Below, in pieces: positions 3,673 through 31,796 of a stretch of 33,372 nucleotides of DNA; positions within the stretch are counted from its first letter, which is position 1, and every line of letters begins with the position of its first letter. The DNA is taken from IMG/VR virus record IMGVR_UViG_3300025890_000069, positions 1-33,372 of that record, one strand, 5' to 3'. The notes under the pieces were generated by a model. It was not told the origin of the DNA. It searched no databases and was given only the letters and a program-made list of their open reading frames with translations. A program made the translations under genes and the position numbers. Source of the stretch: a virus.

Positions 3673-5550
3673 TTACGCGCTACCTCCATCCAGAAAAATT
3701 ATTATATCGTTGGATACTGTTGTAGCAGTTCCTCCGTCTACAATAAAGTTAACTGTGCCTCCTGTGCCTGAGCCTATACCTGATTGATTTTGATTTACAA
3801 ATTTTTGAGAAGAAATACTATATGCTAAAACTTGACCATCCTGTATATTATTAATATCTACATCAGACAAATCCCCAATTTCTTGTGCTCCTGCTAAACT
3901 CTGTACAAAAGCTGTAGTTGCAATTTGTGTATTATTAGTTGCAGAACTAGCTGTAGGAGCTGTAGGAGTGCCTGTAAAAGCAGGATCTGCTAGAGGTGCT
4001 TTTGTGGCTAAACTATTTGTTACAGTTGTTGAAAAGTTTGCATCATCGCCAATCGCTGCAGCTAATTCATTTAATGTATCTAAAGCTCCTGGGGCTGAGT
4101 CAATTAATCCTGCTACTTGTTGATTTACATATTGTGTAGTAGCATAAGGACTTAAATCAGGCGGAGTAAAACTAAAAGTGCCTGTACTATTATTGTACGA
4201 AAAATTACCACTTCCACTGGCAGGAGATACAACTGAAGCCGATAAATCTTCTAGCTCTATCTTTGACTTGCCAATCACATAAGTATCTAAATTAGAGATA
4301 GAGAATAAAAATATCTCTGTTGTAGATACTGCTACACCTATTTTTTGAGTGGTAGTTGTTTTAGTTTGAGTAATTGTACCATTTTGCTCTATATGAACAG
4401 TGGTTCCTGACGTTAGCCCTGAGAATCCTCCCACAACGCCATGTACAGCTACTTTTATATCTAGATTAGCATTTTTTGTTTCTAGTGCTATGCCTATAAA
4501 AGCATCGCTTGCTGTAGTACTAGTTACTGCTACTACTTTTCCATTTGATAGTATTTTTACAGGATCATTAGCAGAAATACTTGCTGATGTTAAAAATGTT
4601 CCGACTAATCGCTCTGAGACCTGTCCAGTTGTTGCAAATCTTTCATCTATAAGAGTGTTTGCAAAAGAGGAAGGAATTTCATTTGCTTCTGTGCCAATAG
4701 AACTATTATTTGGTATCAGCAGTCCGCCCGAAGTAGTTTCGGAAAGTGACGCATCTCCAATATTTACTGTGCCGCCAAAGAAGTTACCACTATGAGCATA
4801 TAAATCTCTAAAGCGGTTTGTAAAAGAGCCAATATCTACATCTCTGTAGTGTACTGTTACTTGTTGACTTGGATTACTGGGATCTGTTTTTGTTTCAGTT
4901 GTATATATATTAGCCGATGAATCCGGTAAGATACTTTGCTGAACATAAATATCTCTCCAACCATTGGAAGAGCTGCCTAAGTCAAGATTAGTAGCTAATT
5001 GATTAGGTATTAAACTTCTGTTTAAAGTTCCAAACTCTCTTTGGAGATACTGAGTAGTGACCAAGTCTGAGTTATTTTGATTAGAAGATGTAGGGGTCGA
5101 AGCAGATACAACTCCCCCAAAAGTACCCCCAGTAGTTCTAGGGACAAAATTTACTTGATTATTTGAGTCAAACAGGGCACTATTTATAGTATTAATTCTG
5201 CCCGCTTCTTCTTCTATTTCATCAGTCCAGTAAGTAAGCTCTCTTTCTAGGCTTGCGATGCCTTGTTTTAGTTGTATAAAATTACTATCTACTTCAATTA
5301 CTGTTAGTAATTCTTCATTTGGTTTATGTGCAACAGTTTGGCCCTCTTTAGAAGTAAGAGGGCTGCTAAAAGAAGAAAGAGGTATTATATAATCGGCATC
5401 CGTATCTTTAGTAACAATATTAATATTCTTACTAATTTGTGTTTCCCAACGACCTGTAACAGTATTCCAAGCATATATAATGCCATCGACTGTTACAGGA
5501 CTGCCTACCCCATTAGCAGGTAGGCTTGAGGAAGTTCTAGGATGCGACAT
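3673..5550 (-). CDS. Modular tail fibre / structural protein (625 aa)
   Basis: The N-terminus (GVGSPVTVDGIIYAWNTVTGRWE) looks like a short attachment module. Residues about 85-120 (VIEVDSNFIQLKQGIASLERELTYW) may form a short helical segment. The middle is beta-rich, with SNGWRDIYVQ and TNRFRDLYAHSG as internal repeats of a kind seen in phage fibres carrying genomic-looking 'RDLY' units. From about residue 468 comes a module (DSAPGALDTLNELAAAIGDD, ATKAPLADPAFTGTPTAPTA, TTQIATTAFVQ) shared with the neighbouring 911-residue fibre. The last 40 residues are Gly/Thr-rich and end in FLDGGSA. The role is inferred: a fibre or fibre connector in the host-recognition cassette. The start is 16 bases after the previous gene, with a purine-rich AAAGAAGA upstream. 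Confidence 0.75.
   Translation of the reverse strand: MSHPRTSSSLPANGVGSPVTVDGIIYAWNTVTGRWETQISKNINIVTKDTDADYIIPLSSFSSPLTSKEGQTVAHKPNEELLTVIEVDSNFIQLKQGIASLERELTYWTDEIEEEAGRINTINSALFDSNNQVNFVPRTTGGTFGGVVSASTPTSSNQNNSDLVTTQYLQREFGTLNRSLIPNQLATNLDLGSSSNGWRDIYVQQSILPDSSANIYTTETKTDPSNPSQQVTVHYRDVDIGSFTNRFRDLYAHSGNFFGGTVNIGDASLSETTSGGLLIPNNSSIGTEANEIPSSFANTLIDERFATTGQVSERLVGTFLTSASISANDPVKILSNGKVVAVTSTTASDAFIGIALETKNANLDIKVAVHGVVGGFSGLTSGTTVHIEQNGTITQTKTTTTQKIGVAVSTTEIFLFSISNLDTYVIGKSKIELEDLSASVVSPASGSGNFSYNNSTGTFSFTPPDLSPYATTQYVNQQVAGLIDSAPGALDTLNELAAAIGDDANFSTTVTNSLATKAPLADPAFTGTPTAPTASSATNNTQIATTAFVQSLAGAQEIGDLSDVDINNIQDGQVLAYSISSQKFVNQNQSGIGSGTGGTVNFIVDGGTATTVSNDIIIFLDGGSA
3890..4109 (-). repeat. 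Fibre module, copy 2 (partner at 1976-2190)
   Basis: Counterpart of the module at 1976-2190. The two copies lie in neighbouring genes, have the same orientation, and keep the reading frame. Confidence 0.7.
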
Positions 5551-7561: not shown

Positions 7562-9616
7562 TTAAAATTGGCGTGATCTGCCAGGGGGTATTGTAGCAAC
7601 ATATGGCTGTAAAAAATATGCTCCTTTCGTATACTCTTCATCCCTCATCCAAACGTAGCCTTTTTCTGAAGAAGAGAGTGTGTCTCTAATACCGTCAGTT
7701 TTTTCTTGAAGTTTTTTCAGTGTTGTATCTTTTAGCCCAATTCTAAACTCTTTTACTTTATTAAGTAAATAAGGATTGAAACTATCATTCACTAAAAATC
7801 TTTCTGTTATTTGTTCTGCAAGTGCAGGTGTTACTGTAAAACTTAGTGCTTTTAGTTTATCAGACCTACCCTTTTTTAGAGAGTTTGCATACCTATTATC
7901 TTGGGTACCAACTGTAAAGGGTATAAAAGCCTTTCCTACTAAAGTTCCGCGTTTATCATCATCTACAAAAATTCTTGATGAAATTAATTTAGACCTTCCT
8001 TCTAAAACTAGATCAGCTATTTTTAGCGTTTCTTTTTGAGGTGTCCTAAACTGTTTCTTTATTCTATCAACAGCATTTACTAAATCTATTATCTTTCGTC
8101 CAAAGGTAAAAAATATATCTCCAATTCCTCCATGATCTCTGTCTTGTGTCTTCAACCCTGCTCGAGTACTAAAAACCCGGCTTTTAGCCTGTATTAAATT
8201 ATCAGAGATTTTTGCTTTTTCTGGAAATACTATTTGTTTATTAAAAAATTTAGCTATTTCTACATCTATTACATCAAATACTTCAAAAAGTCTAAATGGA
8301 AACTCAAGTTTAATAAACTCACTAGTTTGTAGTCTTTCTGTACTAAGTTTTGCCTTTGGGGTAAGTATAGAGTTTAAAATTTGTATTTGCTCTTTTTCTG
8401 CTAAGTTTGGATTTAAAGATATTTTTATAATCAAATCCACTACATCTTTTAAGGATCTATCAAACTTTTTTGAAGCGCTACTAAACGATGCGAGATTATC
8501 TACAGTTTGTTTAAATCTTGCAGGTTTAATTATTGCGTCTCTAATATTATACCTTTCGAATAAAACTCTGTTTACTTTAAAAAATTTATCAATAGATACA
8601 GTTACTAAATCACTTTTTTCTGTAATAGTTTTTAACTTATGTCTAGATTTTGTAGCTGCAGTATCTCTATTCAATAAGAATCTTGATACTAATTCATTTG
8701 TTCGCGTAGAAAAAGTAGAGCGTCTTACAATGCTAGCGTCTTTTGTTACTCTTTTAAATAACTGCATCTGATCTAGCGCATCAAAAGAAATCTTTAATTT
8801 AGTTTTAGATTTTGCACTAACTCTATCAGCCCGAATAAGTGCTTTAGGATTTAGAGTAAAGCTTTTTGTTGCTATATCTTCCTCTAAAACTTTTGTAGCC
8901 CTTATATCTTTAAATACTGCATTTAAAGTTGCTACATCTTCTCTGCTAGTGCTGGTTTTAAATGCAGGAGTAAAATCTTGTATTACTAATCTATCTATCT
9001 GAATTTTTGCTTTTGGAACTTTAATTACGTCTATAAAACTAATTTTATCCCGGGGCCTTACTCTTGCTGTTTTCTTTACAATTATTTCATCAAGTAAGCT
9101 TACAAGTTCTAATTTTTTAATTGATGTCTTTTTACTTAAAACATCTAAAGCTTTCAAGGATGTTACCAGACTCTTAGTACTCTTTAAAGTTTCTGAGTCA
9201 CTTATAAAAAAAGAATCTGCTAACGTAAATTTTTGTAAAAACTTTATAAATTGATCTATTTCTACTATGCTTTCTAAAGGCTTTGTTACACCTTTTCTAA
9301 CGTCCTCTATTCCTGTTAAAATGTCTCTGAACGCTTTATCTTGAGATATTGAAAGAACATCAATTAGTCTTAAACGACTTACAAGCTGTTCTTTTAGTAG
9401 GATAAATAGATCCAACTCTATATTGAACAAGTTGGGGTCATTTATCAAGGAAGCTGCCCCAAGCATAGTGGGCATGTTTCCTGTTATTCCTGCAAATAGG
9501 GGCTCATTAAGAACTGAGACTTCGTCTAATCTGGCTGCAGTTGTATTTTTATTCAGTAGCTCTGGATTATTTTTCAACTGAGATAGTAAAATTGAAATCT
9601 TGCTATCTAGTGACAT
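7562..9616 (-). CDS. Basic, repetitive structural protein of unknown function (684 aa)
   Basis: I do not recognise a named domain. The protein is rich in Lys, Asp, Leu, Ser and Phe, poor in Gly, has no Cys and a single Trp near the C-terminus (GYVWMRDEEY). It reads as degenerate 30-45 residue units of the form 'basic-hydrophobic stretch, S/T, D-x-(I/L/V), K', for example RPRDKISFIDVIKVPKAK and STFSTRTNELVSRFLLNRD. The C-terminus ends in GAYFLQPYVATIPPGRSRQF. Marine phages often carry long repetitive structural proteins with repeated S-x-x-D-x-(V/A)-x-K units and an aromatic C-terminal cap. This looks like a diverged member of that idea, but that is inference. It starts one base after the preceding stop (TAAAATG), in the cassette driven by the promoter at 10188-10216. 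Confidence 0.7.
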   Translation of the reverse strand: MSLDSKISILLSQLKNNPELLNKNTTAARLDEVSVLNEPLFAGITGNMPTMLGAASLINDPNLFNIELDLFILLKEQLVSRLRLIDVLSISQDKAFRDILTGIEDVRKGVTKPLESIVEIDQFIKFLQKFTLADSFFISDSETLKSTKSLVTSLKALDVLSKKTSIKKLELVSLLDEIIVKKTARVRPRDKISFIDVIKVPKAKIQIDRLVIQDFTPAFKTSTSREDVATLNAVFKDIRATKVLEEDIATKSFTLNPKALIRADRVSAKSKTKLKISFDALDQMQLFKRVTKDASIVRRSTFSTRTNELVSRFLLNRDTAATKSRHKLKTITEKSDLVTVSIDKFFKVNRVLFERYNIRDAIIKPARFKQTVDNLASFSSASKKFDRSLKDVVDLIIKISLNPNLAEKEQIQILNSILTPKAKLSTERLQTSEFIKLEFPFRLFEVFDVIDVEIAKFFNKQIVFPEKAKISDNLIQAKSRVFSTRAGLKTQDRDHGGIGDIFFTFGRKIIDLVNAVDRIKKQFRTPQKETLKIADLVLEGRSKLISSRIFVDDDKRGTLVGKAFIPFTVGTQDNRYANSLKKGRSDKLKALSFTVTPALAEQITERFLVNDSFNPYLLNKVKEFRIGLKDTTLKKLQEKTDGIRDTLSSSEKGYVWMRDEEYTKGAYFLQPYVATIPPGRSRQF

Positions 9617-20850: not shown

Positions 20851-21233
20851 GGCTCGTACACTCTTCGTAAGTTTGCTGTTATAGAGTGAAAATTTTCAGA
20901 AACATAAGTAATATTATAATCCTCACAAACTACTTTTTGAGTTGTATTTCCCGCTTTATCTGCAACGGTGAATGAAAATGCTTTTCCAATATTTTCATTA
21001 AAAAACTTTTCAATATTGTAAATATCTGCTGCTGCTCTATTATTGAAAGTAATCATAAAAGTTTGGTCTTTTGCATTTACTCCGTCTATAACTCTTTGCT
21101 CGTACCCATCACCAAATTTAGCTGTAAGAACTCTGGGCACCGTATTTCTTGATAGCCCTCTATCTGCTGTAACTATTTGATCCGAGCCCCCTGTAATTGC
21201 TGCTGGAATTGTAAATTGAAACTGAGCTGACAT
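20847..21233 (-). CDS. M: Minor tail protein, lambda M-like (128 aa)
   Basis: The motif LTAKFGDGYEQRVIDGVN (about 37-54) with the following FMITFNNRAAADIYNIEKFF and NITYVSENFHSITANLRRVY is typical of lambda gpM-family tail tip proteins ('F-G-D-G-Y-x-Q-R-x-x-x-G-I-N'). Length is near lambda gpM (109). The family adds to the tail tip after L and before tail tube growth. It starts on the stop of the tape measure gene and ends in the start of the L-like gene, so the order H-M-L is preserved. Confidence 0.9.
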   Translation of the reverse strand: MSAQFQFTIPAAITGGSDQIVTADRGLSRNTVPRVLTAKFGDGYEQRVIDGVNAKDQTFMITFNNRAAADIYNIEKFFNENIGKAFSFTVADKAGNTTQKVVCEDYNITYVSENFHSITANLRRVYEP

Positions 21234-24200
21234 TATCGTGATCCATATGGACTAAGTAGTCCACCCGGGCGTTTCTGTGATTGTAACTCTCGTTGTACGG
21301 CTGCTGCAATTGCTCTTCCCATTTCTCTGGAGTCTCCTTCAGTTGTTGTTTCAGCGCTTCCATCATTATTAACATTAACATTTACACTTACATTGTTTGT
21401 CTGGGCACCTCCACCCGACATTTCAACAGGTATTGAGCGGCCGTTTGGAAGAGGTACTACAGCCTCTGTACCGTGAAGCATTGCCATATAGCCTGCATCT
21501 GACCCTCTAGCAACTCCTCCAACTGCATAGCCTTTTGGGGTCATACCACCGTATCGAAAATCAAAAGAACCAGGAGTAAAGTTTGCTCTACCAACCCCTG
21601 TACGAGGAGGGGTTACATTTGTAGGAACCCCGCCAGTAGCACCAGTACCAGGGACCCCGAACATGTTTCCAAGCATATTCATCGCGGACATTATCATTTG
21701 CTGAACGAGTAAGCGAGCAATAATTCGAGAAATATCCTGTAACATTGAGTTTGCTAATTGTTTAAATGCCTCTTTTCCACTTTCCGAGCCCGATATAATT
21801 GCTGCAAAAGCATTAGTAAAGTTTTCTTCCATTGACATTGCAGACTCTTCTACGGCCTCCTGTAGTCGGCTTGTTAGCTGTATTTGGGCTTCAAGCATAA
21901 ACTTCTTATGCTCTAACTGCTCTAGTTCATCTTCTTGACTTGCAGCGGCTGCTGCTCTTGCCGCGGTCTCCGTCGCAGCTAAGTCTGTCGTTAAAGAGGT
22001 TAGTCCAGCGTCCATCTCGCCAGTATAACTCTTGTTTGCTTTTGCATCAGCACGTGTTATATCTACTCTATGACGAAGTAACGCATACTCAGCTCGAATA
22101 GCTGCATCGGCCTGCTTTCCCCGTGCCATAATTAATTGCTTTTCTCTATCATAGCGCTTATTAAATGAGTCTAGCTCCATTTGGGCACGACGATTATCTT
22201 GGTCAATATAGTAAAAAGGATTTCTCAGCCGCTCTTCTACCTCGGTTCTATCAATTTGACGATCATCTCTTGCTTTTTCTAAATCTAACATTTGCTGTGC
22301 AAAATCAAGACGTTTTTTCTCTAAATCTAATAGTTGCTTATTAATCCCTAATACTTTATCCTGTGCTTTAAGACTTTCAAGATCACTGTTGGTCGAATCA
22401 TGCATATACTGCTTGGTTCTATCTCTAATTTGATCAAAAATTAGAGCTAGTTCTCTACCTAGTAGCTCGAGTTGATCTTGCATTGCTGATCTTTGAGTGG
22501 GATCCTTGGTTATATCTCTTGTAGCTTCTAGAGCAGCAATATCTGTTTCTATAAGCTTTCGTTCCTTAGCGAGATCTACAATAGCATTATGAAACTTTAT
22601 TCGGCGTTGTTCTTCTTTTGTCTCATCTCCTATTAATCTTATTGTTTGTTCTTTTGCAGAAATAGCAGTATCTCTTTTAGAAAGTTCTAAATCTGCAATC
22701 TTTTCTGCTGCTGATATTTGAAACGTAACTAAATCGCGCTCCGCTTGAAGTTTCTTCCGCTCTTCAGGATTTGTAAAAGTTCCTCCTAGTTTAAAGTCTA
22801 GAGCTTCTTGTTGTTCTGTTAGTTTTTGCAGCAACTGCTGTGCAGGAGTTAATTTAGCAGCCTCTGCAATAAATTGAGCTAAAGAATCCTTTGCTGTTTT
22901 TATAGCTAAATCAGCTGCCTTCATATCGTTTGAAAAATTTACAGCGCCTTTTTTTGCGTCTCCAAACTGATCTATCATCTCTTGTGTGATTACATCTGAA
23001 GTAAGAATTTCATCAACAGCCGCTAAAAACTTTGCTACAGGAGCATAAGCTGCTCCAGACGACTCTTGAACTGCAAGAATTCCATCTCTTAATTGTAACA
23101 ATCTTTTTTCAGTCTCCTCTCTCTGCTGATTTCTTGCTGTACGTGCTTGGCTGTCTCCTCCTGTAATCTCATCAGAAATCTTACCTGCTTCTCTAGCTTC
23201 ATCTATAATAGGCTCGATAAAAACATCTGAAGCAACAAGACTTGCTACAGCCGCTGTTGCAACGCCGAGTAGTCCCCCTATAGCCGTACCAATACCCGGA
23301 GCAACCACGCTACCCAGCCCTGCACCGATGCCGCCGAAAGTGCCCGCAGTAGCTAAAAAGCCTAGTCCTCCTACAGCCATCGCTGCATTGTCTACAAAAT
23401 CCATTTCTTTTGCATTTGCAACCATTTTCTCTTGTTCTTTACCAAGCTTTTTAAAATCAATAAGCATTCTTTTTGTTTGCTCAGGATTTTGGCCCGAAAA
23501 AAGACCACTTAAATTACCATACGCACTTACTCCTTGGATCTTTCCAAGCTCCATTTGAATTTCTGCAAATTTTTCAAATTCTTTATTCAGTTTAGCTAAA
23601 CGCTCTTGAAAAGTTTTTGTAGCCTCAGCATTGGCCTGTAACTCTTTTTCTTGGTCAGTTAAGGGGCCTTGAGTAAACTCTTTATACATTGAGAAGCCTG
23701 TAAACGCTAACGCCCCATAGGAGACCATACTAAGAACTTTTGAGAATATACCTGCAATTGCTGCTGCTGCCACTTTTACTGAAGCAGATATTCCTGCAAT
23801 CGCGGCCTTACTTCTCAGTGCAAATAATTCGGTTTTTCTAAGGGTACTGTCCTGTGCGGCATTCATTGAACGATATGCTTCGGCCATCTCACGAACCATA
23901 TGAATTTTCATACCCGTAAAGGCGCCTTTTATAACCACTCCTGAACTATTTACGTTATTTTCTGCGGCTTTTACCGCTGAATTAAATCTTGCAACCTCAG
24001 CGCCTCCTAAATCTTTCCCTTTGCTAAGAGTTGTTAAAAATCCTGCTTTGGCCCCATCGGCTAAGCCTACATTTGCAAGGCTTGTCAAATCTTTTTTGTA
24101 GTCTTGTGTGGTTTTAGAAGCTAGCTTTACTTCTTGCCTGACAGCCCTGTAAAAGGTTTTTTGTGATGCAGCAGAATCTCTCGCAGCGTCTGCAATTCCT

Positions 24201-25132
24201 GTGAAACTCAGCCCTAAAGCTCTTAGCGGGCCAGAAAGTAAAACACCTAAAGAGGCTACCGCAAGAGCAGGGGTTTCTTGTAATACTTTTGCTAGAGGGC
24301 CTGCTACCATATCTACAACTGATTTTACTGACATGATTATATCATCAAAAGCTTTTTGAAGTTGAGCATACTGATTTGGGCTTCTTCCTACAATATCAAG
24401 TATTTTTCCATATTTTTCTTCTGCTTGCTCTAGAATATCATTGGTTACTGCTTGTTGTTTTTGGAATGTTGTTAGTTCGGTTGCATTGATTCCTAAAGAA
24501 GTTGCATATTTTTGTGAAGCATCATCTAAACGAAGAATAATACCTAATTCGTCAAGTAGTTCTGGCTCTGCTTTTGTGGCGCCACGAACTAAACGATTAA
24601 AAGAATCAGTAACATCTCGACCCAAAATTTGAGAAGCATCTGCAGCAGCTTTGCCAAGTCTAACAAGCTGATCTGCGTTTAAACCAGCAGCACTACCAAT
24701 AGCCGCTGCTTGTGCGGCATCTCGGAAAGCAATTTGAGAGTCTGTTGCTCGTATAATATCGTCAGTAAGCGTATTGATTGCTACACCTGTTGAAGATGCA
24801 TAAGCAACTTGACCTGCGCGAAGAGACTTCAATTCTCCCGCAGATTTTAAAAAGTTAAAAGCGGCAGATACTGCAAATAATGAGGCAGCCAAAGAAGCAT
24901 AAGCACCAACTAGCCCGCCCATACCTTGTTGCATTTTTGAAAAGTTCTTAGAAGCGCTAGAAGAAGCTTGGGCAGTGCCTTTTATATTTCGATCTGCTTC
25001 ACGAGACGATTTAGACACATTGCCTAAGCCCTCATCAATGCCACCAAGTTGGTTTTTCAGCTTTTTAGCATCAACAGTAGCTTTTTGCATCTTACCATTG
25101 ACTTCAATATCGATCTGTATTTTTCTAGCCAT
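21233..25132 (-). CDS. H: Tail tape measure protein, lambda H-like (1299 aa)
   Basis: A long helical protein with an N-terminal coil, a first hydrophobic segment at about 71-97 (GLVGAYASLAASLFAVSAAF), further hydrophobic stretches near 440-480 and a Gly/Ala-rich one at 575-640, then a charged coiled-coil section at about 740-1100. The C-terminal part (GYAVGGVARGSDAGYMAML, TEAVVPLPNGRSIP at about 1199-1225) is the usual end of lambda-type tape measures. It sets tail length and leaves the tail lumen with DNA at infection. Its ATG overlaps the stop of the frameshifted chaperone (TAATG). By the common rule of about 0.15 nm per residue, the tail would be near 195 nm; this is an estimate. Confidence 0.95.
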   Translation of the reverse strand: MARKIQIDIEVNGKMQKATVDAKKLKNQLGGIDEGLGNVSKSSREADRNIKGTAQASSSASKNFSKMQQGMGGLVGAYASLAASLFAVSAAFNFLKSAGELKSLRAGQVAYASSTGVAINTLTDDIIRATDSQIAFRDAAQAAAIGSAAGLNADQLVRLGKAAADASQILGRDVTDSFNRLVRGATKAEPELLDELGIILRLDDASQKYATSLGINATELTTFQKQQAVTNDILEQAEEKYGKILDIVGRSPNQYAQLQKAFDDIIMSVKSVVDMVAGPLAKVLQETPALAVASLGVLLSGPLRALGLSFTGIADAARDSAASQKTFYRAVRQEVKLASKTTQDYKKDLTSLANVGLADGAKAGFLTTLSKGKDLGGAEVARFNSAVKAAENNVNSSGVVIKGAFTGMKIHMVREMAEAYRSMNAAQDSTLRKTELFALRSKAAIAGISASVKVAAAAIAGIFSKVLSMVSYGALAFTGFSMYKEFTQGPLTDQEKELQANAEATKTFQERLAKLNKEFEKFAEIQMELGKIQGVSAYGNLSGLFSGQNPEQTKRMLIDFKKLGKEQEKMVANAKEMDFVDNAAMAVGGLGFLATAGTFGGIGAGLGSVVAPGIGTAIGGLLGVATAAVASLVASDVFIEPIIDEAREAGKISDEITGGDSQARTARNQQREETEKRLLQLRDGILAVQESSGAAYAPVAKFLAAVDEILTSDVITQEMIDQFGDAKKGAVNFSNDMKAADLAIKTAKDSLAQFIAEAAKLTPAQQLLQKLTEQQEALDFKLGGTFTNPEERKKLQAERDLVTFQISAAEKIADLELSKRDTAISAKEQTIRLIGDETKEEQRRIKFHNAIVDLAKERKLIETDIAALEATRDITKDPTQRSAMQDQLELLGRELALIFDQIRDRTKQYMHDSTNSDLESLKAQDKVLGINKQLLDLEKKRLDFAQQMLDLEKARDDRQIDRTEVEERLRNPFYYIDQDNRRAQMELDSFNKRYDREKQLIMARGKQADAAIRAEYALLRHRVDITRADAKANKSYTGEMDAGLTSLTTDLAATETAARAAAAASQEDELEQLEHKKFMLEAQIQLTSRLQEAVEESAMSMEENFTNAFAAIISGSESGKEAFKQLANSMLQDISRIIARLLVQQMIMSAMNMLGNMFGVPGTGATGGVPTNVTPPRTGVGRANFTPGSFDFRYGGMTPKGYAVGGVARGSDAGYMAMLHGTEAVVPLPNGRSIPVEMSGGGAQTNNVSVNVNVNNDGSAETTTEGDSREMGRAIAAAVQRELQSQKRPGGLLSPYGSR

Positions 25133-25964
25133 TAGCCCTTTACATTATAGGTGTAATTTTTCCCACCGCTTTTTTGACGTTCTGATCGTTTGCGTTCTGC
25201 CTCTGCTTTATCTGCTCGATGCTCTACTATATGTCTTTCGTAAGATTTCATAAAGTAAAGAACTGTAGTTCTGTCCTCAATTTGGTAGGTATCAAAATAA
25301 AAATCTATACCATCCCATATTTTACCCATATATGTCCCACTCATTCCTTCCCATCTATCTGGTAGTAGACTAAGCATAAAAAATGCCACTTGAACCTCCG
25401 GAGGAAACTCCGAGATTTCGAGCGGCATTTTGGTAGGATCGGGCTCATGCCCTAATTGTTCACATACAAGCAGATACTTTTCTACATCAAAATTTGTATC
25501 ACTCTCTCGCACATAGCGCTTAAGTAGAGACTCTATACTCTCTACTTGCTCCCAGTAAAATTTTCAAGGTCGCCCACCGCCTCCGTAACCCAACTATCAA
25601 ATACATTGGAATTTTTCATTAGAAGCTCGGCATTGTCTTGAGTGTATGGAAGTTCATCATCAGGGTCCAAGTTTGAAACATCTACCAAAAGAAGCTCTTC
25701 TAGGTAACGAAATTTAATCCCGGACCATCCTTGGATTACTGCCCTACAATACTCTACAATAAATTTTTCTTCGTCTAACTCTTCTTCGGGCTGGCGCGTT
25801 TTACGATTGAATTTAGTACTAAGACATCGCTTACGTAGCTTGACTAGTTCTTCTCTTCCTAGATAACATAGCTCAATCGCCATTCCGGTATATCCTGGAA
25901 AATCTATACTAACAGTCTTGCTTGGCGTCAAAAGACTTGATAAAGAAACGGGTGTATCGCTCAT
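25132..25964 (-). CDS. Tail assembly chaperone GT, made by -1 frameshift (about 277 aa)
   Basis: Reading starts as the 140-residue G protein and slips back one base on AAATTTT (25563-25557). It continues YWEQVESIESLLKRYVRESD and on to the stop at 25132. That adds 141 residues to the first 136, total 277, close to lambda gpGT. The downstream frame alone has only a GTG at 25512 without a proper ribosome site, and it is open right back to the slip site, which fits fusion and not a separate gene. The T part (PLEISEFPPEVQVAFFMLSL, WDGIDFYFDTY) ends in a basic tail. In lambda, G and GT bind the tape measure and recruit tube subunits. Neither is in the finished tail. Confidence 0.9.
25522..25563 (-). 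promoter_or_regulatory. Programmed -1 frameshift signal: AAATTTT plus stem-loop
   Basis: The heptamer AAATTTT (25563-25557) is in the required phase (A AAT TTT) in G. After a 9-base spacer, AAGTAGAGA (25547-25539) pairs perfectly with TCTCTACTT (25530-25522) around an 8-base loop. The zero-frame stop TAG (25544-25542) lies in the 5' arm of the stem. Both tRNAs can re-pair after the slip (AAT to AAA, TTT to TTT). Confidence 0.92.
25542..25964 (-). CDS. G: Tail assembly chaperone G (140 aa)
   Basis: Same length as lambda gpG (140) and in the same place, between major tail protein and tape measure. It is acidic and helical (LGREELVKLRKRCLSTKF, EEELDEEKFIVEYCRAVIQG) and ends DLENFTGSK. It is the zero-frame product when the ribosome does not slip at 25557-25563. 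The start has AAAAAAGGA upstream and is the first gene after the promoter at 26003-26031. The G:GT ratio sets tail assembly in lambda and is expected to matter here. Confidence 0.92.
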   Translation of the reverse strand: MSDTPVSLSSLLTPSKTVSIDFPGYTGMAIELCYLGREELVKLRKRCLSTKFNRKTRQPEEELDEEKFIVEYCRAVIQGWSGIKFRYLEELLLVDVSNLDPDDELPYTQDNAELLMKNSNVFDSWVTEAVGDLENFTGSK

Positions 25965-26095: not shown

Positions 26096-27346
26096 TTAAG
26101 GAGCAATGCCCTTATAAGTAATCTTAACCTCGTCTGCATTCGTAATAGTAGAAGGCAGAGCATGAAAGTTAGTCTCCAAGGAGATAACATCTTCAATTTG
26201 ATGAGTAGGAATATCAATGTGAGCACTTGGAAATTCAAATGCTAAGCCAACGCCAGTGGCGGCAGTAATATCACCAATAGTAAACTTCAAATTAAACTTA
26301 TTTCTAGTTAGGGTTGTAGTTGTAGAAAGATCTTTAAAGAATCTAGCACTACGATTATCAGTTCCTGTATTATCATCATTCAAGTAACAAGTAAAAGAGC
26401 CCGTAATATTTCGAGTGCCTGTTATATGGCCAATCGGAGTATTCACTCTACAAAGCTCCTCAGGAGTTAAGAATGTAATATTATTTTCAAGGTTAATGCT
26501 GCCCCCCGTAAGAATGAGGTTATAAGATGCAAGGAACTCATCCCCACTAATACCATCTGGATTCAAGTCACCCGCTTCCCCAAAAACTTGGTCAGTATCG
26601 GTGTCTGGTTGAACAGTCAGCGATGCGATACGATTTCGTAGAAAGTTGTTTGTTGCTAAAACCCCTGCTCGACCTAAAGTAGCCGTTGAGTTAGTATTAA
26701 AGTCAATTGCTGAACTAGCATCAACTTGAGTTACAGTTGATCCAAAACCTGACCAGTTAATAGTAGTAATACCATCAATGTCAAAATCAACGCCTGCAGT
26801 ATTTACAACGCAGCCGGCAACTTTGTAAATTGTTTGGCCGGCAGCTTCACTATAGGCTGATTCATCGGCCCCAGGTGCACAGCCACCTAGTACAAAATAC
26901 AGATCAAAAGTACCAAGCTCGGTACGGTCTGAATCATTTGCATCAAGTACGAGGGTCGTTGCTGCAGTAGTGCCTCGAGCGTTTATAACCACATTTGTAT
27001 TAGTGCCTTGATCCCACTCTTTGTTTGTAGCATCCCAAGAGCTTGCACCAAGGAAATAAGCCCAGAGAACTTCTTCTACAGCAGTTTGAGCGCTAGACTC
27101 GAACACGGGGCGTGCATAAGTAGAAAAAGACCACTCTGCAGGCTCCAAAGCATTTGTGAACATTGAACGTCCACGATTTGAGTTTCCGGAGGCATCTTGC
27201 ATTTCGTTCAAGGTCACCTCCGTAGTAGCCGTAGATTGCGAGAAAGAAAACCCGTCCAGTACCGGAATCTTCCAATAGACCGCAGTTGATCCTGCAGGTG
27301 CAATATACACATGAGTATCACGGCTTAGTTGAATAGTTGCTGCCAT
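26096..27346 (-). CDS. Major tail (tube) protein, lambda V position (416 aa)
   Basis: The N-terminus (AATIQLSRDTHVYIAP, then WKIPVLDGFSFSQSTATTEV, TLNEMQDASGN, and NALEPAEWSFSTYARP) is typical of tail tube subunits of siphoviruses, where 'D-G-(F/Y)-S-x-S-x-x-x-x-x-x-E-V' is a common strand-loop. At 416 residues it is longer than lambda gpV (246). The extra part (about 105-230) contains the paired strands TFDLYFVLGGCAPG and a Cys-bearing VAGCVV. It polymerises into the tail tube around the tape measure. A strong AGGAGA site and a following terminator fit high-level expression. Placement between tail terminator and chaperones supports the call. Confidence 0.9.
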   Translation of the reverse strand: MAATIQLSRDTHVYIAPAGSTAVYWKIPVLDGFSFSQSTATTEVTLNEMQDASGNSNRGRSMFTNALEPAEWSFSTYARPVFESSAQTAVEEVLWAYFLGASSWDATNKEWDQGTNTNVVINARGTTAATTLVLDANDSDRTELGTFDLYFVLGGCAPGADESAYSEAAGQTIYKVAGCVVNTAGVDFDIDGITTINWSGFGSTVTQVDASSAIDFNTNSTATLGRAGVLATNNFLRNRIASLTVQPDTDTDQVFGEAGDLNPDGISGDEFLASYNLILTGGSINLENNITFLTPEELCRVNTPIGHITGTRNITGSFTCYLNDDNTGTDNRSARFFKDLSTTTTLTRNKFNLKFTIGDITAATGVGLAFEFPSAHIDIPTHQIEDVISLETNFHALPSTITNADEVKITYKGIAP

Positions 27347-29765: not shown

Positions 29766-31187
29766 TTACGTGTCGGTTCGAACCAACTTGATAACAGACT
29801 TATCAGTTGAAGTGTCAGCAACCAGCTGGTTAAAGCCTAGTGACTGAGTAGCAACGATAACGTTACGCTGATTCATTACTTCGTAATCTTGCTCAACGTT
29901 CACACCGCGCAGGCGTGGAATAACAAAGTTACGTACGTTGAGTGCAAGGCCTACTGCAGCGCCATCAGCTTCTGCAGGGAAGTTGTCAGATACAATTACA
30001 GGAGTACCGAAGATAGAACCTACCGTACCAGTAATCTTGGTCGCAATATCTGAACCTACATCAGTAATATCTGCGAAACCGGCATCTGCAATCAAATCAT
30101 AGTAACGTGCCTGAGAGACAACATATACAAGATCAGATGGGTTCATACCATACTTACCCATGGCCTTACGAGCATCCAAGAACTCGGATGCGGCGAGAGT
30201 CAGGTCTACTGCGGTGCCCCCAACTGCGTCAAGAACACTAGTGGAGTTGCTGCCGGAAAGCTTGATAAGACCGTCAAACGCATCGGAACCACCAGTAGCA
30301 ACGTGGTTAAGCAGAGCTTCATCCACTGCGCGAGCGTGAGCACGTGCAACAGACTCAACAAGCATAGGCATAAGATTGACAAGAACTTCCTCATCGATAT
30401 GATTATCCATGAGTGTGCTTGAAATCAAACGATACGCCTTGAGCACTACTTGGCTGGGCTGATAGGTATTAGCCGAAACCTGAGTTTTGTTCTCAAGAGT
30501 TGGAGTAGTTGCCGCACCGGTTTGGAACGAGGCCAAGTTAGTATCGGTTTGAATCGGCAGTACTTGAGCTTGAGAATTGATTTGAACCTCACGGAAAGCT
30601 TGTGCAAGACGAAGCTCACTCAAGATTTCCTTCTCGATTTGGCTAGATACTTCTGTAGCAATATTAGGTGCTGCAGTAGCGTAGCTAATACCTGCCTTCT
30701 CGATGATGCTCTTACCATAATTAGTTTGGTCAAGAGATTTGTTACCCAGCATGACACCAGCCATGTGAGCGTACATCAGTTCTTTGCCCCACTTAGAAAT
30801 GACACCTGTCTCTTCTGAACGATCTGCGAATACACGCTTTGAGTCACGAATCTTTGTGAGCTCTTCGTTCTTCTCTTCGAGCTGAGACTGGAATGAAGCA
30901 ACTACTTCATCAATCTTAGCGTCTTTTTCAGCGAGCTTGCTTTGAATGTCGTCCATCAGACGATCTGCGCCTGACTCAACACCTACGCGAATAGCTGCCT
31001 GAACTTCTTCTTCTTGAGCTGCCTTGACTTTGGCTTCTACTTGAGCCTTTTCAGCTTCTTCTTGGGCTGCCTTCTCTTCGGCTGCCTTTGACTCGGCTTG
31101 CTTCATTGCAATTTTAGCAGCAGTCTCTTCTGCTACCTTCTTTGCAAAAGCTTCCAAGTCGATTTCGGGAGTTTGTACCTCCGACAT
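29766..31187 (-). CDS. Major capsid protein with delta domain, from internal start (473 aa)
   Basis: Met204 of the fusion ORF (SEVQTPEIDLEAFAKKVAEE follows) is preceded by AAGGAGA with six bases from GGAG to ATG, a better ribosome site than that of the full-length ORF. Translation from here gives coil plus capsid without protease, 473 residues, which fits an HK97 gp5-like precursor. I expect this to be the main product and the 676-residue fusion the minor one, so that a few proteases enter each prohead. This is inference from the sequence; lambda C/Nu3 is a known case of an in-frame internal start within a protease gene. Confidence 0.82.
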   Translation of the reverse strand: MSEVQTPEIDLEAFAKKVAEETAAKIAMKQAESKAAEEKAAQEEAEKAQVEAKVKAAQEEEVQAAIRVGVESGADRLMDDIQSKLAEKDAKIDEVVASFQSQLEEKNEELTKIRDSKRVFADRSEETGVISKWGKELMYAHMAGVMLGNKSLDQTNYGKSIIEKAGISYATAAPNIATEVSSQIEKEILSELRLAQAFREVQINSQAQVLPIQTDTNLASFQTGAATTPTLENKTQVSANTYQPSQVVLKAYRLISSTLMDNHIDEEVLVNLMPMLVESVARAHARAVDEALLNHVATGGSDAFDGLIKLSGSNSTSVLDAVGGTAVDLTLAASEFLDARKAMGKYGMNPSDLVYVVSQARYYDLIADAGFADITDVGSDIATKITGTVGSIFGTPVIVSDNFPAEADGAAVGLALNVRNFVIPRLRGVNVEQDYEVMNQRNVIVATQSLGFNQLVADTSTDKSVIKLVRTDT

Positions 31188-31796
31188 AATGATCTCCTTG
31201 TTCACGGATTGTTCCGTTACATCCGGTGTTTCACTAGCTATAGATGAATTTTCATCCTTAGCCAGAGACTGACCGGCTAGATCTACACGATTGGTGAAAG
31301 TTTTCTTGAACTCATTATACTCATCAATGGAGTCAAATGACTTCGCCAGAGAGAAAGTAGCTGCTTGATTACAAGGCACAGATACAACTGAAACCTCAAA
31401 CAACTCAGCATCCTTAATCTTTAATCCATCAGTTTCCGACATATAATCAGCATCCTTGACTCGGAAACCAACAGAAAAAGCTCCAAGAATGCCTTCTTTT
31501 ACTAATTGCGCCACATGATCTGGCGCAGATTTAGAAATTTTTGCTTTTAGTTCGAGACCGTTTTCAGTAACTTTAAGTCCTGTGGCTCGACCAATAGGCT
31601 TGTTATAGTCATGATTAAAAAGAATAATTGGGTTCTTTTCAAAATTTTGAAGTCCACCCTTTGTCCATGCTTCTGCCATAATAACGTCGTTTGCACGATC
31701 CTCATCATGTGTACTTGCCATTCCGCAGATATGGACTCCGCCATCGTCTTCCTCGAGGGCTTTAAAAGTGGAAGTAAGATTAAAAATCTTTTCCAT
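29766..31796 (-). CDS. Prohead protease fused to scaffold and major capsid protein (676 aa)
   Basis: Residues 1-165 are an S78-type (HK97 gp4-like) prohead protease. His62 lies in ILFNHDYNKPIGRA, Ser108 in LGAFSVGF, and Glu134 in ELFEVSVVSVP, the expected His/Ser/Glu set. There is no stop before the capsid part. Residues about 165-203 are a linker; 210-325 are a Glu/Lys/Ala-rich coiled coil that would act as the scaffolding delta domain; and 330-676 carry the HK97-fold capsid sequence (QVLPIQTDTNLASFQTG, VNLMPMLVESVARAHARA, MGKYGMNPSDLVYVVSQARY, GTPVIVSDNFPA). Maturation would cut off protease and coil. The ATG overlaps the previous stop (TAATG). An internal start at 31187 is described separately. 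Confidence 0.93.
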   Translation of the reverse strand: MEKIFNLTSTFKALEEDDGGVHICGMASTHDEDRANDVIMAEAWTKGGLQNFEKNPIILFNHDYNKPIGRATGLKVTENGLELKAKISKSAPDHVAQLVKEGILGAFSVGFRVKDADYMSETDGLKIKDAELFEVSVVSVPCNQAATFSLAKSFDSIDEYNEFKKTFTNRVDLAGQSLAKDENSSIASETPDVTEQSVNKEIIMSEVQTPEIDLEAFAKKVAEETAAKIAMKQAESKAAEEKAAQEEAEKAQVEAKVKAAQEEEVQAAIRVGVESGADRLMDDIQSKLAEKDAKIDEVVASFQSQLEEKNEELTKIRDSKRVFADRSEETGVISKWGKELMYAHMAGVMLGNKSLDQTNYGKSIIEKAGISYATAAPNIATEVSSQIEKEILSELRLAQAFREVQINSQAQVLPIQTDTNLASFQTGAATTPTLENKTQVSANTYQPSQVVLKAYRLISSTLMDNHIDEEVLVNLMPMLVESVARAHARAVDEALLNHVATGGSDAFDGLIKLSGSNSTSVLDAVGGTAVDLTLAASEFLDARKAMGKYGMNPSDLVYVVSQARYYDLIADAGFADITDVGSDIATKITGTVGSIFGTPVIVSDNFPAEADGAAVGLALNVRNFVIPRLRGVNVEQDYEVMNQRNVIVATQSLGFNQLVADTSTDKSVIKLVRTDT
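31185..31199 (-). promoter_or_regulatory. Strong internal ribosome binding site inside the protease-capsid ORF
   Basis: AAGGAGA followed by TCATT and an in-frame ATG (31187-31185, residue 204). It sits exactly at the border between the protease linker and the start of the coiled coil. Confidence 0.88.

Follow-up and report, generated by a model that had tools for sequence, protein, structure and literature searches.

The question raised by this locus is how ribosomes reach the second of two overlapping open reading frames that lie among the tail genes of a marine phage. The window, by which we mean the whole 33,372 nucleotide stretch analysed (IMG/VR record IMGVR_UViG_3300025890_000069), carries on its minus strand a portal gene, head genes, a tail terminator gene, the major tail protein gene, the pair G and T, the tape measure gene and tip or fibre genes. 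The overlapping pair is thus placed between the major tail (tube) protein (26096–27346, minus strand; phrog_3575, 2.9e-45) and the tape measure protein (21233–25132, minus strand; phrog_3779, 6.6e-43, and Pfam Tape_meas_lam_C). The products of both frames match families of tail assembly chaperones. G, the zero frame protein of 140 amino acids (25542–25964, minus strand), matches phrog_313 (3.2e-13). T, an open frame of 141 codons plus stop at −1 relative to G (25132–25557, minus strand), matches phrog_3914 (1.7e-17). Neither product had a match in Pfam. Among the head genes, one 676 amino acid open reading frame (29766–31796, minus strand) matches phrog_80 and Peptidase_S78, a head maturation protease, at its N-terminal end and phrog_267 and phrog_617, a major head protein, at its C-terminal end. 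It looks like a fusion of protease and capsid protein with a coiled stretch between them.

The minus strand sequence at the end of G reads GAC CTT GAA AAT TTT ACT GGG AGC AAG TAG. It includes the heptamer A AAT TTT (25557–25563), in the codon phase of G, and T begins at the last base of this heptamer. A 9 nt spacer (25548–25556) separates the heptamer from a perfect 9 bp stem. The 5′ arm of the stem, AAGTAGAGA (25539–25547), contains the zero frame stop codon TAG (25544–25542). The loop, GTATAGAG, is 8 nt long (25531–25538) and the 3′ arm is TCTCTACTT (25522–25530). A −1 slip at the heptamer would give the junction ENF-YWEQ and a predicted GT fusion of 277 amino acids (25132–25964, minus strand), with both families in one chain. 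The stop codon of T, TAA (25134–25132), shares bases with the tape measure ATG (25132) in the sequence TAATG. The heptamer, spacer, stem and loop, buried stop codon, fusion length and overlap with the tape measure start had been given in a preliminary description of the locus, and each was confirmed in the sequence.

Heptamers of the AAATTTT type are frequent when considered alone; 54 were counted in phase in 10,400 codons. Both strands of the 33 kb window were scanned for the full combination: an open zero frame, a stop codon at most 60 nt away, a −1 frame open for 100 codons and a 9 bp stem at a distance of 5–12 nt. The combination was found once, at the G/T site. The folding energy of the stem (z = −1.1) is uninformative when taken alone. 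On the sequence comparisons below, the convincing evidence for the stem is its conservation and covariation in relatives, rather than its folding energy.

The site has the features of a lambda-type G/GT cassette: the gene position, the chaperone families, an in phase X XXY YYZ heptamer with T at −1, and a T without its own start. Shared with lambda are the gene order (major tail protein, G, T, tape measure) and, as predicted here, a −1 shift late in G that yields a minor GT product. The slip site of lambda G/GT is GGGAAAG (Xu, Hendrix and Duda, 2004, as cited in PMC5009743). The window differs in having AAATTTT and a strong conserved stem that encloses the stop codon. Family searches detected no similarity of the window G to lambda G. 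Identification of the site as a G/GT tail assembly chaperone cassette is strongly supported by comparison with its relatives. We propose that tRNA-Asn on AAT in the P site and tRNA-Phe on TTT in the A site would be in place when the ribosome meets the hairpin 9 nt downstream. A fraction of ribosomes would then move one base backwards by tandem slippage, with the two tRNAs re-pairing on AAA and TTT, and so bypass the TAG and continue into T. By analogy with lambda, G and GT would be expected to cover the tape measure protein and to recruit tail tube subunits (reviewed in PMC5009743).

Relatives were drawn from IMG/VR by scans with G and T together with profile scans. The 435 loci obtained were sorted by the frame of T: 310 had T at −1, 119 had T at +1, and 6, at contig ends, were undecided. 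The 310 loci of the −1 group comprise 160 distinct complete junctions, all with T at −1. Every one of the 160 contains an in phase slippery heptamer. This is AAATTTT in 159 cases and TTTTTTT, which is also slip competent, in the remaining one (locus L157). After clustering at 75% identity, 33 AAATTTT and 1 TTTTTTT were counted among 34. The codons of the site are invariant (GAA 154/154, AAT 154/154 and TTT 155/155, with kinship ignored), and elsewhere in the same genes these codons are used at 69%, 61% and 82%. An upstream Shine-Dalgarno stimulator is not a general feature, being present in 27 of 160 −1 junctions and 0 of 96 +1 junctions. A single protein scan of bacterial genomes had one contig as its sole match. 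This contig (L440, PBHZ01000026.1, positions 4500–4620), binned as a marine archaeon of the Euryarchaeota, carries a −1 cassette with AAATTTT and the stem; it is probably a phage contig in the wrong bin.

The downstream stem was compared across the same junctions. In the main class, defined by a zero frame stop codon 12 nt past the heptamer (130 distinct junctions), ten stem positions were paired in 78% of cells, compared with 28–41% when one arm was slid by 1–3 nt. There were 132 cells with a double change, and the inner pairs occur as up to six standard pair types. Across all classes, 90% of −1 junctions had a stem score of at least 15 near the site. For controls the figures were 16% further downstream in T, 6% in shuffled sequences and 9% in the +1 clades, in which a downstream stem was sought and not found as a feature. 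The commonest spacers in relatives are 8–10 nt. About 10% of −1 relatives have no strong stem, and some stems are weak or shifted. In 17 of the 160 junctions the zero frame stop codon has moved to 21 or 33 nt past the heptamer. Several of these have the stem at a different distance, such as 15 or 5 nt. Such re-spacing is expected if selection acts on pairing rather than on the exact sequence. The preliminary description had proposed a −1 frameshift cassette and an alignment of relatives, in which loss of heptamer and stem with both frames intact would count against it. The proposal is supported by the families, the gene position and the 160 junctions: a slippery heptamer was lost in none of them, and the stem covaries.

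The named relatives are T5-like phages. There are approximately 890 records, all below 60% identity, with the best G matches reaching at most about 42%. Their G and T are homologous to those of the window (phrog_313 and phrog_3914). T is at +1 in the 11 records fetched, from Demerecviridae or similar phages, and in phage T5 itself. A large sister clade, which is nearer to the window (50–55% identity), likewise has T at +1. When the fusions were aligned, TTT CGT or TTT CGA fell on a Phe codon, and this is the A-site codon of the window heptamer. All 96 distinct +1 junctions read TTT C, as TTT CGN in 94 and TTT CAC in 2. The Phe codon at the site is TTT in 95 of 95 cases, against 75% elsewhere in the same genes. 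Similarly, Arg at the site is always CGN, though 69% of Arg codons elsewhere in those genes are AGA or AGG. A point against the overall reading is that codon rarity would not explain pausing at CGU in the +1 relatives, as E. coli does not use CGU rarely (table in PMC3498833). The window and its clade do not belong to this UUU_C class, having T at −1 and TTT followed by ACN.

In phage T5 (AY543070.1, minus strand, record positions 97458–96624), a +1 slip at ACT TTT CGT would join T5.143 and T5.142 into a product of 277 amino acids. The two are annotated as separate hypothetical proteins. Upstream, a TAG at 8 nt shuts the +1 frame, and the zero frame ends 15 nt past TTT, so there is little room for another slip site. 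We predict from the sequence that T5.143 and T5.142 are one +1 frameshift gene with its site at ACT TTT CGT. The genome announcement for phage Sugarland describes a chaperone that, like that of T5, has no predicted frameshift signal (PMC6256483). The record for phage Shivani already annotates a coding sequence joined from two pieces. A further 41 kb record, of Corynebacterium phage CPphiVTCCBPA_418 (PQ773600.1), has T5-like chaperone genes that closely resemble those of coliphages, with 93% identity to the G of AKFV33. Its host assignment or assembly may be wrong.

In 11 distinct +1 junctions the sequence is GAA AAT TTT CGT, so that both signals are present together. Thus, the −1 heptamer can exist beforehand in a +1 gene. 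With the heptamer already present, a one base change of frame downstream and a stem would suffice for a switch. Before TTT, the +1 group has more AAC than AAT (51:26, compared with 367:487 elsewhere; Fisher p = 1e-4, with kinship ignored), and the −1 heptamer might be mildly avoided there.

Trees were built from the fused proteins, with the junction residues removed, and separately from G and from T, with midpoint rooting. A single change of direction suffices on each. In the fused tree the −1 clade has support of 100/99 and is present in 100% of bootstrap trees. The −1 clade and its +1 sister clade group together with support of 97/86, and outside this pair fall the Vibrio and T5 lineages, each of them +1. 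The change would run from +1 to −1 if the root lies outside this pair, where midpoint rooting and the successive +1 branches place it. The most likely origin of the window's clade is a +1 ancestor, by a single change of direction. We consider it probable that one gene pair, at the same codon, passed from an ancestral UUU_C +1 site, kept by T5, to A_AAU_UUU with a −1 shift in a large marine clade, gaining the stem by way of intermediates with both signals.

The strongest competitor is that recoding arose independently in the −1 and +1 clades, or that −1 is ancestral. Midpoint rooting alone fixes the root, a single change on an unrooted tree carries no direction, and phages at large use −1, −2 or +1 shifts for this gene pair (PMC5009743). 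Set against these points, the same homologous Phe codon carries the slip in both clades, the +1 state is shared by the sister clade and at least two deeper lineages, and the eleven junctions with GAA AAT TTT CGT are already in the +1 group. We regard this alternative as unlikely in comparison with a single switch from +1 to −1, though it retains some weight.

A very improbable alternative is that T is an independent gene, translated by reinitiation or from its own start codon after the stop of G. The T frame does hold start codons, such as GTG at 25512 in the window, and in most annotations of T5-like records T is a separate coding sequence starting at an internal ATG. However, a search of T in the −1 clade for a start codon that is conserved and preceded by a Shine-Dalgarno sequence found none. 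In this clade the first possible start varies over positions 10 to 43, nearly always without a Shine-Dalgarno sequence, and the AKFV33 record itself remarks 'No ribosome-binding site'. The T frame also behaves as protein upstream of any start. Directly past the slip, Y and Q are conserved (84/84 each), and T shows protein-like conservation from its first codon onwards, the third codon position having higher entropy than the first two. A fixed heptamer and a covarying stem would be left unexplained if T had its own start.

Still less credible is a fusion made by transcriptional slippage at the AAAATTTT run. Runs of A or T can make RNA polymerase slip, and L157 has seven T, but runs of four are, by general experience, too short for transcriptional slippage. 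The conserved phase and the covarying RNA stem downstream are instead marks of ribosomal slippage. A sequencing or assembly error, as might be feared for a homopolymer-like run in a metagenomic contig, is refuted by the 310 loci from many metagenomes that share the −1 relation, and its probability is negligible. Taken as a whole, the sequence comparisons make it very likely that a programmed −1 frameshift yields minor GT beside major G, at a site homologous to the +1 UUU_C(GN) site, with descent from a +1 ancestor as the most likely origin.

The preliminary description had also called the heptamer unusual. This stands in part: a literature search, which did not cover Xu et al. (2004), found no paper naming AAATTTT in a phage tail chaperone. 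The reading of an exotic heptamer was dropped, as AAATTTT is a canonical X XXY YYZ sequence and a recognised viral slip site. AAAUUUU is a conventional −1 site in the umbraviruses GRV and E-TBTV (PMC4737148) and in roniviruses (PMC3169540). These share the heptamer with the window, but are RNA viruses of plants or invertebrates and use it in polymerase genes.

The T5.143/T5.142 pair shares with the window homologous G and T, the same Phe slip codon and a predicted fusion of 277 amino acids. Unlike the window, the T5-like pair has T at +1, the site NNN TTT CGW and no stem. For these +1 relatives the nearest known mechanism is that of influenza A PA-X, for which a +1 shift at UCC_UUU_CGU has been shown; Firth and colleagues foresaw a wider UUU_C class (PMC3498833). 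In PA-X, tRNA-Phe in the P site moves off UUU and onto UUC ahead of a CGN codon, and it would do the same in the +1 relatives, but not at the window site. PA-X differs in belonging to a eukaryotic virus, in its E-site codon and in the gene concerned, and the resemblance is one of mechanism, not kinship. The +1 junctions would provide a phage example of the class that Firth and colleagues foresaw.

A −1 shift in the genes that separate major tail protein from tape measure is widely known, and phages differ in using −1, −2 or +1; the reviewed cases belong to different phages and lack a site that is aligned among them (PMC5009743). A search of openly accessible papers found none that describes a frameshift changing its direction at a homologous codon. 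With its relatives, the locus is a documented case, at the level of sequence, of one recoding site used in opposite directions in homologues, with a +1 site predicted in phage T5. Both directions occur at one codon in alignable homologues, with 96 (+1) and 160 (−1) distinct examples and one inferred change. The way in which a frameshift changes direction can thereby be tested in E. coli with short reporter constructs. A candidate site is also offered for phage T5, for which there was previously no predicted signal (PMC6256483). Elsewhere in the window, an open reading frame with no assigned family (7562–9616) has an in phase TTTTTTA at 7616 (minus strand), 55 nt before its stop codon.
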